Assembly: GCA_018302805.1 (NCBI GenBank)
Contig: JAGVZD010000002.1
Span: forward strand, 1-46,723
Length of the DNA stretch: 46,723 nt
Source: Candidatus Woesearchaeota archaeon
GTDB lineage: Archaea; Nanobdellota; Nanobdellia; SCGC-AAA011-G17; JAGVZF01
Reading direction: 5' to 3'
The stretch's first letter is position 1, and each line of letters opens with the position of its first letter. Of this stretch, positions 11,683-26,732 are shown piece by piece. A model generated the notes under the pieces. That model was not told the DNA's origin. It was given only the letters and a program-made list of their open reading frames with translations, and searched no databases. Both the position numbers and the translations under genes were made by a program.

Positions 11683-12133
11683 CCGAAGTTTTTTTGTTTT
11701 TTACAATTACTTCTCCACCTAGTGCAGAAACCTTAGCAATTGCATTTTTTGATGCTGCATCACAGATAATCTTAAGTTTCTTTGTAACAATTCCAGAACC
11801 AAGTAGTTTATGATATCCTAGCTTTGTTATATCTACTATGTAAATATTATTTTCTTTATTTTTGGTTAATTGCTCTGCATGAGTATCTATATAGAACAGA
11901 TTTATTGCTTTTTGTTTAAGATGTATAGAAGTAAATCCTTTCTTACCATAATAAGAATGACCATACTTCTTCAAGATACTTGGCTTTTTTTGGTCTGCCC
12001 TTTTCCCAGTACCTGCCATACCTACACCACCTCGGTTACCTGATCCTCGGTGTTTCTTTTTAGCACCCCAACCGTGAGTGGTTTGAGCCCTCATTTTCTT
12101 TGACTTTTTCCGTTTATTTTTTAATGCTAACAT
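11663..12133 (-). CDS. rpl15: ribosomal protein uL15
   Basis: This 156-residue protein carries the conserved THGWGAKKKHRGSGNRGG glycine-rich region followed by the KKPSILKKYG stretch. The C-terminus has the LLGSGIVTKKLKIICDAASK domain. The N-terminal basic leader (KNKRKKSKKMRAQ) makes the upstream ATG the likely start. It precedes secY, with which it overlaps, as in most archaeal spc clusters. Confidence 0.95.
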   Translation of the reverse strand: MLALKNKRKKSKKMRAQTTHGWGAKKKHRGSGNRGGVGMAGTGKRADQKKPSILKKYGHSYYGKKGFTSIHLKQKAINLFYIDTHAEQLTKNKENNIYIVDITKLGYHKLLGSGIVTKKLKIICDAASKNAIAKVSALGGEVIVKNKKTSGEPSNA

Positions 12134-23885: not shown

Positions 23886-24374
23886 TTATCCGCCAGAATC
23901 ATCAGAAGAACTTCGCTCATATTGAGAACCTTCTGAAACTAATTGAATCTCTATATTTACATCAAAAGGTTTAGAAAGATCTTTCATAAGGATTATTAAT
24001 TCTTCAATATTTTCTCTGCCATTGGCTTCTAAAACCCATTTACTGTTAGAAACTGTATTTCTTGCTTGATTACTTATCCATAATGTTCCTAGATCAAAGG
24101 CATATTGCTTTTGTTTCCATTTAATTCCAAGAAAATTTTTTTGAATTGGATCCCTAGGTTTTAAGATAGTAATAGCATCAGGATCTGGTTCTTCTACTCT
24201 CCATCCACATGAATTCCCGATTATATAATTTTTACTCTTAAGATATTCTGCAATTTTATAGGCTGGAGTTTCATAATAAGATACCTTATTTTCTTTAATT
24301 TTTTGAGTTATTTGAGAATTATCTGAATATTGTCCTGAAGATTCAATCTTTCCTAAATAATCATCTATTGGCAT
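23886..24374 (-). CDS. unknown protein, sharing an N-terminal pattern with its neighbour
   Basis: I do not recognise this 162-residue protein. It begins MPIDDYLGKIES, resembling MPIDQYFDKLEG at the start of the gene just upstream. The middle is mixed, with an isolated CGWRVEEPDPDA, and the C-terminus ends in a Ser/Asp/Gly-rich tail (ERSSSDDSGG). No signal peptide or membrane helix is visible. It starts 3 bases after its neighbour ends, so the two are surely co-transcribed and probably act together. Confidence 0.6.
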   Translation of the reverse strand: MPIDDYLGKIESSGQYSDNSQITQKIKENKVSYYETPAYKIAEYLKSKNYIIGNSCGWRVEEPDPDAITILKPRDPIQKNFLGIKWKQKQYAFDLGTLWISNQARNTVSNSKWVLEANGRENIEELIILMKDLSKPFDVNIEIQLVSEGSQYERSSSDDSGG

Positions 24375-24377
24375 TTT

Positions 24378-25094
24378 TTATGTTTTAATTTTTACACGTC
24401 GTACCCCGAGTCCAGGAGACCGGTACGTAGCACCCCTATTGCAGTCCAGACCAGCCCTACCTGAATTAGCGAAGAACACAGCGACAGAATTATTTATTGG
24501 AGCAAAATACCATAAATTTCCACTTTTGATATTACTTGGGGGCAATCCATGCCTTGTTAAAGTATCAATCCATTGTTCTAAATCTATTCCAGGATTTTTA
24601 TTGTCCGACAAGTAATCTTCTAATAGTATGAAATGTGCAGGTTGTAATTTGTTATTGAAAGTTCTATGATCATAATTTATTATTAATGATTTATCAGTTG
24701 GATTAACTTTAAAATCTGCATCTAACCATTCTCCTTGCCAAGGATCTTTTATTTCTAAAATATCATAAGCCATTTTGAGTAATATTGATTCGTCAATTCT
24801 TTGCCCATTTCCATCAAAACCTCTGCCAATTTTTAATAAGGATAAAAAATCTACATATTGTCTTATATTTAGCATAAATGAATTTTCACGATGCAATGCA
24901 TGATGAGCATTAAACCAGTTTAATCCAAAATGTGATTTTTCACAGGAGATTAATAAATCCCGATAAGAATATGATCCATGTGATTTACCTTCAAGAAAGA
25001 TATATCCTTTGTCATTTGCACTTTTGGAGGTGAATCTAATTTTATCAGAAGTTCGTACACCTTCTAGTTTATCGAAATATTGGTCAATTGGCAT
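24378..25094 (-). CDS. unknown protein with a possible retroelement-diversified C-terminal domain
   Basis: This is a 238-residue protein. Residues 1-200 have ordinary AT-rich codons, with stretches such as CEKSHFGLNWFNAHHALHRE. The last 35 residues (NNSVAVFFANSGRAGLDCNR and on to a GLGVRRVK ending) switch to GC-rich DNA, about 54 of 100 bases at 24392-24491. A hydrophobic start, scattered small residues and a G-x-GVR end recall C-type-lectin-fold variable proteins of diversity-generating retroelements, which are reported in DPANN archaea. No reverse transcriptase or template repeat is in this window, so this is an inference from composition and pattern. It has its own TATA box. Confidence 0.55.
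   Translation of the reverse strand: MPIDQYFDKLEGVRTSDKIRFTSKSANDKGYIFLEGKSHGSYSYRDLLISCEKSHFGLNWFNAHHALHRENSFMLNIRQYVDFLSLLKIGRGFDGNGQRIDESILLKMAYDILEIKDPWQGEWLDADFKVNPTDKSLIINYDHRTFNNKLQPAHFILLEDYLSDNKNPGIDLEQWIDTLTRHGLPPSNIKSGNLWYFAPINNSVAVFFANSGRAGLDCNRGATYRSPGLGVRRVKIKT
24392..24491 (-). other. GC-rich segment, candidate variable repeat
   Basis: By hand count about 54 of 100 bases are G or C, against roughly 30 percent around it. It encodes the end of the preceding entry's protein. Many codons have free first and second bases with a C or T third base (GTC, TTC, GCT, GAC, TGC, TAC), as expected where adenines of a template have been mutated. Confidence 0.35.
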
Positions 25095-25223: not shown

Positions 25224-25883
25224 TTAAATATCCTGTGATTTTGTCTCCTGTTGTCTCTCTTTTAATTTTTTTTCTCTTTCTGGAGAATCATGCCACTTCC
25301 TGTATCTATCCCAAATTTCAGACCAAATATTATCAAAATATCTAGGAGAAACAATCGCTGCATCATTCCTCAATTTCTTAAGACTAACAACATGGGGATA
25401 TTTATTGTCAAACGAAAATAAATAACTATATGTTTTTTCTAAATCTAATTTACTTAAGAAATCAGTATAGCTCAATTCATCTTCTTTAAATCCACAATCC
25501 TCTATTCCAGTTATCTTTTCATAGATTTTATTATCGAGGGAACCTGATTCAATGAATTTCGATTGAATATTAGAAGGATTTTTACTCTTTTTTAAGTCAA
25601 TTTTATAATCAGATAAAGATTCAAGAAGTGTATTATAATCAGATGTGGGAATTAATCTTAAATTTGGGTAATCGTGGTTATCCTTAGCTCCTTTGGAGTA
25701 TAAATATGATTGAAACTTTTGAATTTCTGGTTCTGGAACATAAACTGTAAAAATGTCAATATTCTCTGTTGGTTTATTTAGGATTAAATCAAGACCAAAT
25801 CTACCTGTAGCAAACCAATGGTACTTAGAACTCTTTAATGTGTCTACAATATCTCCTTTCAAATAAAATTCTCTAATATCCAT
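25224..25883 (-). CDS. degenerate nucleotidyltransferase-like protein
   Basis: This 219-residue protein has an N-terminal pattern like minimal nucleotidyltransferases: TGRFGLDLIL (27-34), then TENIDIFTV (39-47). In active enzymes the second element is D-x-D; here it reads N41-I42-D43, and the first element has GRFG where GG is usual, so the active site looks impaired. The rest is helical and charged, with a Lys/Glu/Gln-rich C-terminus. It sits 30 bases after an intact nucleotidyltransferase gene and may be its partner. The family call is tentative. Confidence 0.5.
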   Translation of the reverse strand: MDIREFYLKGDIVDTLKSSKYHWFATGRFGLDLILNKPTENIDIFTVYVPEPEIQKFQSYLYSKGAKDNHDYPNLRLIPTSDYNTLLESLSDYKIDLKKSKNPSNIQSKFIESGSLDNKIYEKITGIEDCGFKEDELSYTDFLSKLDLEKTYSYLFSFDNKYPHVVSLKKLRNDAAIVSPRYFDNIWSEIWDRYRKWHDSPEREKKLKERQQETKSQDI

Positions 25884-25913
25884 AAATAATCAAAGGTAAA
25901 TAGTTTTATTAAG

Positions 25914-26732
25914 CTATGCTCGAGCTAATTTGCAATACCCAGCCATATATTCTTGGCTAGGTCTAACTAGAACTTCTTCATTAGGCTTACCAATTGTATT
26001 ATAAAGACTAATGACTTTAGCAAGTTTAAGTTTCTGTTTACTACCTAGTTCAGCATAAATATCATTTACCATATACTTTTCAATTTCAGCTAATCCAAGT
26101 AAATTATAAATATCTGCAATATCTCTATCTCTTGGTAATCCAGTTTTTGTTTCTACATTTAGTTTTAACTTTATCAAGTCGATAATGCTCATTGCTCTGA
26201 TATTGTGTCCTAATATATCAATATCTCTTGATCTACTCCATATCTTTTCATCAATTTCCTCTCTACATAATACAATATCTCCTGCAGATTTGGGAACATA
26301 AAGATCTATTTTAAAAGGAGGTTTACTGGGATTTCCTTCCAATTCCCTAAGTAATTCAAGTTCATCTTTGATATAAGCAACATCCTTATCTGGAAAATGG
26401 GATGTATTTACTTCAACTTCTTCAAAAGCACCTTCTAGAACAGATTCAATGCTATAATCTCTTGAAACAAGATCAAGGTCGTGTGAACCCCTCCATCTAC
26501 TAAGTATTTTATCTCCTCTTGCACTATATAGATGAGCCAAAACCGCATAGCCTCCAATAAGCATATATTTCTCTTGTAATCCTGTAGAATTTAACTTTTC
26601 ACAAACAGCAATTAAATAATTAAACGCTCTTGAGAAGTCCTCTGATTTATTATTTAAATCTCTTAAAATAGACTCCATTCTATTAGAGTCTACCTTATCT
26701 ACAAATGCAAAGGCAATATCTTCTAATCCCAT
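25914..26732 (-). CDS. AbiEii/MNT-like nucleotidyltransferase
   Basis: This 272-residue protein has a nucleotidyltransferase active site: IGGYAV (59-64), HDLDLV with D85 and D87, and a third carboxylate in FKIDLYV (D143). The later SIIDLIKLKLNVETK and RDRDIADIYNLL segments match the AbiEii/DUF1814-like class, which includes toxins that modify tRNA or proteins and housekeeping enzymes of unknown role. The N-terminal 50 residues are helical. It is the first gene after a divergent promoter and is followed by a degenerate relative. Confidence 0.75.
   Translation of the reverse strand: MGLEDIAFAFVDKVDSNRMESILRDLNNKSEDFSRAFNYLIAVCEKLNSTGLQEKYMLIGGYAVLAHLYSARGDKILSRWRGSHDLDLVSRDYSIESVLEGAFEEVEVNTSHFPDKDVAYIKDELELLRELEGNPSKPPFKIDLYVPKSAGDIVLCREEIDEKIWSRSRDIDILGHNIRAMSIIDLIKLKLNVETKTGLPRDRDIADIYNLLGLAEIEKYMVNDIYAELGSKQKLKLAKVISLYNTIGKPNEEVLVRPSQEYMAGYCKLARA

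Follow-up and report, generated by a model that had tools for sequence, protein, structure and literature searches.

The gene at 24378–25094 on the minus strand of the window, that is, of the whole 46,723-nt stretch of DNA analyzed here, is almost certainly a target of a diversity-generating retroelement (DGR), a natural system that rewrites one gene end at random. As a whole, the observations are very probably best explained by a DGR variable protein (VP) that is diversified by a trans-acting DGR and that may belong to a MoxR-vWA sensor array linked by an N-terminal tag. DGRs are common in DPANN archaea, and attachment is the usual guess at what their targets do. In the present genomes, about 1 Mb in size, one family of DGR targets is linked through gene clusters and the shared tag to a MoxR-vWA pair, which forms the core of immune switches proposed for bacteria.

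The VP gene is an open reading frame of 238 aa, in which the predicted C-type lectin fold starts near residue 30 and extends to the C-terminus. Its variable region (VR) was located at 24387–24485 (minus strand, 99 nt), and the part at 24415–24485 (minus strand, 71 nt) was set against the templates of relatives. The constant 3′ end of the VR contains the IMH-like sequence CTCGGGGTACG (24400–24410, minus strand), which is common to the other fresh VRs described below and to the VRs of relatives; at this place, the template repeats (TRs) of the relatives read CTCGGAATAACCC. The N-terminal tag MPIDQYFDKLEG (25059–25094, minus strand) is common to about 34 genes of the same genome and was disordered in the structural model. 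A tagged neighbor (MPIDDYLGKIE, 162 aa; 23886–24374, minus strand), without VR and without Pfam family, lies 3 bp downstream of the VP gene.

The first-pass annotation of the window had described the last 100 or so coding bases as GC-rich with no change of frame and the encoded tail as ending in GLGVRRVK, and both were recovered: the G+C content of 24392–24491 was 54.0% compared to 30.1% for the rest of the coding sequence and 30.6% for the window, all within a single open frame, and the translation ends as described. High G+C content by itself is not decisive, since a tRNA (1707) and the ORF at 11993 also contain 100-base segments of at least 0.54 G+C in the window. Several tail codons had been read as mutated AAY codons, and this was borne out when a template from a sister TR, VARFNANSDRANLNCNRNPQNSK, was compared with the window sequence, VAVFFANSGRAGLDCNRGATYRS: the AAY codons of the template correspond to TTC, GGT, GAC, GGT, and TAC in the window VR, or to unchanged AAT.

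The window protein belonged to no family in Pfam, PHROGs, PADLOC, or NCBIfam, and its sole Pfam match (VTC, E 0.11) was weak, under the cut-off, and rejected; a PDB sequence search with the protein gave no match. An AF2 model based on the window protein aligned to relatives reached a pLDDT of 88.1 and a pTM of 0.85, with residues 1–25 disordered. The PDB neighbors listed for this model were C-type lectin domains (best E 3.2e-3), and its matches in a viral structure library included phage tail-collar fibers and a TvpA-like protein. The protein is thus predicted to have a C-type lectin fold, a ligand-binding fold expected of DGR targets. Two upstream ORFs on the same strand (25224–26732) looked nucleotidyltransferase-like, the first with a sub-threshold Pfam match (E 0.074) and the second with none.

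Further copies of the tail were found in the genome from which the window comes (G000), an assembly of 1.03 Mb in 74 contigs with a completeness of 89.5%. A search with the 48-residue tail gave ten more matches among G000 proteins, three with E <1e-5 and the others weak, and a profile made from ten family members (A1) had 19 matches, i.e., about 20 related genes scattered over the genome. GC-rich tails were present in four genes on four contigs (the window, C28:1620–1736, C47:12926–13020, and C9:5108–5224) and aligned over 99 bp without gaps, save for one 1-nt deletion in C28. The 54 constant columns of this alignment comprised 20 G, 16 T, 15 C, and 3 A, and the 45 variable columns used all four bases. 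Constant columns so poor in A within an AT-rich genome therefore fit copying from a single template with changes at template A. A single template seems to have given rise to four or more VRs lying on different contigs, so the DGR would act in trans on dispersed genes. The VRs were graded by G+C content (fresh, 0.55–0.61; eroded, 0.32–0.46), and erosion of the GGGGTACG end was seen in the other VRs inspected but in none of the four that are GC-rich. Codon identity between C54 and C47 was 0.61 for the body and 0.88 for the VR, which is the expected direction with numbers too small to lean on. One-nucleotide gaps shifting the frame near the C-terminus were seen in the VRs of G000:C28:1620–1736 (L022) and G079:C13 (L082 777–852); they may stem from an assembly error, a dead gene, or a copying error.

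Among 103 genomes of the same order, in which the named relatives are Woesearchaeota, Nanoarchaeia, and Pacearchaeota, the A1 profile had matches in 33 (G000 included), and RVT_1 was present in 24 of the 31 other VP-bearing genomes searched. VRs of the family were found to adjoin a TR, with a reverse transcriptase (RT) in the same locus, in six loci from five genomes (G008, G056, G073, G076, and twice in G081). In these loci the TR/VR mismatches at template A were 16/16, 14/14, 9/9, 14/14, 11/11, 16/16, 15/16, 12/12, 10/11, 12/13, 14/14, 7/7, and 10/10, and the G081 TR was readable in the RT frame as AVARFNANSDRANLNCNRNPQNSKS. These loci identify the family of the window protein as a true family of DGR targets. 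A second VP class, ending in LGVF.C.E/P and not in LGVR, shared loci with the LGVR class (L129 9409–10170, L133 2625–3446, L135 7243–8070, and L136 10713–11603).

The 22 majority-A and 48 never-A sites were defined with the TRs of G008, G056, G079, G081 (two TRs), and G087, six in total from these five genomes. The window VR was changed at 14 of the 22 majority-A sites compared to 7 of the 48 never-A sites (Fisher 6.7e-5), so that its mismatches to the TRs of relatives were mainly at template adenines. The VR from C28 was changed at 15/22 (one being the deleted base) and 1/48 sites, that from C47 at 13/22 and 2/48, and that from C9 at 12/22 and 2/48, with Fisher P-values of 6.7e-5 to 3e-9 over the four fresh VRs. 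In six other G000 paralogues with G+C contents of 0.32–0.46, 16–24 of the 48 never-A sites were changed. Judged from these sequences, G000 appears to hold fresh, slightly aged (that of the window), and fossil VRs, and within this one genome such a series would show at which time each target ceased to be rewritten. The paralogous tails, found on several contigs, would also be expected without any DGR, had gene conversion or a recent duplication carried a GC-rich segment from one paralogue to another, with drift thereafter. Such an origin is very improbable, because the changes fall at the template-A sites of relatives and spare the others, whereas ordinary drift strikes both site classes, as in the eroded copies, and because complete TR/RT cassettes exist for the same family in relatives. 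The A-site bias, the RT/TR cassettes of relatives, and the C-type lectin fold model instead support the proposal of the first-pass annotation that the gene encodes a DGR variable protein.

As that annotation had stated, neither an RT nor a template copy was found in the window. In the G000 assembly, no match was obtained with RVT_1, with a profile of 14 sister RTs (up to E 10), or with two sequence patterns for the TR. Absence of both from the complete genome, together with low read-level variation in the segment, had been proposed as evidence against a DGR; this absence holds literally for the assembly, but the assembly is incomplete and fragmented, and the DGR reading stands because sibling VRs and the TRs of relatives supply the evidence. 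Two RTs were present in a genome of the same genus (G002), and each was accompanied by a TR and a VP of its own (L020 3629–5775; L021 9723–11989). The VPs of G002 look like other families, and that of L021 (11153–11989) has AvpA-type motifs. With no RT or TR in G000 and VPs of other families in G002, the driver of G000 is therefore unassembled, lost, or foreign. The RT and TR are probably encoded in genome sequence that the assembly lacks; their recent loss is a good deal less likely, and action from another replicon or organism is improbable. That a driver still exists in the cell is somewhat favored. A MoxR/vWA operon on G000:C16 was considered as a contig-end home of the missing RT/TR, but neither a VP nor a TR was seen at that place, and it was rejected. 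Viral contigs searched by protein and by DNA pattern gave no match to the family, and a viral origin is thus without support.

If the DGR had been lost from the lineage, all VRs, including that of the window, would be relics at different stages of decay, which would account for the assembly without RT or TR, for the erosion of VRs seen in six or more paralogues, and for the frame-shifting deletion in the C28 VR. We consider such a loss unlikely, as three VRs with only 1–2 of 48 never-A changes and a whole IMH point to recent copying, and as about 10% of the genome is missing from the assembly. The window VR itself may no longer be rewritten, because it shows 7 non-A changes in 48 sites compared to the 1–2 of its siblings.

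The A bias and the fold come from this analysis, and the copying mechanism is drawn from established DGR biology and the complete cassettes of relatives. An A-rich template RNA would be reverse-transcribed with errors at adenines, the error-bearing cDNA would replace the VR next to the IMH, and at the tip of the lectin fold the framework would be kept while contact residues are re-drawn. The VP array may act as a set of ligand sensors, with the tag coupling them to a switch made of MoxR and vWA, along the lines suggested for the ternary conflict systems of bacteria; recruitment by the tag, signal output, and current DGR activity are steps that we infer.

The tag start pattern had 36 matches in G000 compared to 0 in the control, and at least two of the matches (C9:10175 and C50:16761) look unrelated. 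The MPIDxxL tag was found on diverse protein bodies and is probably genome-specific; in relatives, VPs of one locus share a locus-specific N-terminus, e.g., MTKPKRFFGRDPKENLKKVLA twice in G081 C33. The largest cluster, with 17 tag matches in C47:6678–22699, consists of closely abutting genes on one strand. In this operon of the VP family, a MoxR-like ATPase (C47:9659–11131; AAA_3 2e-10) and a 670-aa vWA protein with HECGAH and DSSGSMS motifs (C47:19030–21042; VWA_2 E 0.0035, under the Pfam cut-off) were present. The window gene itself has no MoxR/vWA neighbor. Four tagged C47 proteins without tail match were scanned with Pfam, which assigned them to no family and revealed neither a VMAP nor any known effector (peptidase, TIR, nuclease). 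A second pair of a MoxR-like ATPase and a vWA-like protein was seen in G000 at C16:136–4334 (L141), with no VPs seen nearby.

In relatives, the gene order MoxR, VP, vWA/HELGH, VP, TR, RT was found, and the vWA-like counterpart resembles vWA folds in a predicted model with a pTM of only 0.48. A vWA profile matched 11 of the 103 genomes of the order. In 6 of the 7 VP-bearing genomes with a match, the match adjoined a VP on the same contig, and that of G000 was on C16, where no VP was seen; the C47 vWA of G000 is too divergent for this order-wide profile. Attachment to host or partner cells has been proposed for DPANN DGRs (PMC5006420, PMC7495880), and in line with these proposals the diversified proteins might serve attachment and not conflict, with MoxR-vWA as their assembly chaperones. 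This alternative is conceivable though short of probable: the vWA profile matched only 7 of 33 genomes with VP compared to 4 of 70 without, and MoxR/vWA are not beside the window gene, but no signal peptide or membrane segment was apparent in the window protein when the translation was inspected by eye, and VPs lie in between MoxR and vWA genes in four relatives, in two further named records, and in C47. That the tag serves a MoxR-vWA switch is suggested tentatively, by inference, and the C47 cluster offers a concrete set of proteins for examining its role.

An extra segment was seen between the variable core and IMH* in the TRs of the relatives' loci L109, L110, L111, L114, L142, L143, L146, L147, L149, and L151. 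It can form a hairpin (CTCG-AAA-TCT ... AGA-CGAG), with all pairs kept in 10 sequences and compensatory changes in one pair; the statistics are modest, 41 of 500 shuffles being equally good. The segment is missing from the VRs shown, which share its flanks (18–21 nt where measured), and one G081 VR (L109 11469–11545) retains it in mutated form. A joint reading, in which about 20 dispersed, DGR-diversified lectin sensors of a DPANN archaeon are fed by one trans template and connected by the tag to MoxR-vWA as an immune-repertoire-like conflict system, and in which the template-RNA hairpin of relatives is skipped during cDNA synthesis, is possible and somewhat doubtful.

Compared to Mtd, TvpA, and AvpA, the last being the reference archaeal VP (PMC5006420), the window gene is alike in its C-terminal VR, A-directed AAY substitutions, 3′ IMH, and C-type lectin fold. 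It differs in that no RT/TR cassette was found in the assembly and that the many members of the family are scattered and carry a common N-terminal tag, and the AvpA motifs GXXVVVYAH, HPXXXPFXG, and RFXGV were not found in the window translation. MoxR-vWA ternary conflict systems with DGR targets have been described mainly from multicellular bacteria (Kaur 2020, PMC7159879; Dore 2024, PMC10907252). The bacterial systems (VMAP) likewise show a MoxR-like ATPase, a vWA protein, and C-type-lectin DGR targets clustered together, but the elements described here belong to DPANN archaea with genomes near 1 Mb, the vWA is a protein of its own instead of a fusion with the lectin domain, neither a VMAP nor a known effector was recognized, and tagged paralogues replace the known adaptor domains. 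Clade 5F DGRs of CPR and DPANN were stated to lack conflict-system domains (Dore 2024, PMC10907252); should the present RTs belong to clade 5F, this statement needs revision. Remote DGR targets escape the survey of Roux 2021 (PMC8144416), and compared to the remote-target DGRs considered there, the present genome holds a graded series of eroded VRs in addition to no fewer than four fresh ones on four contigs.
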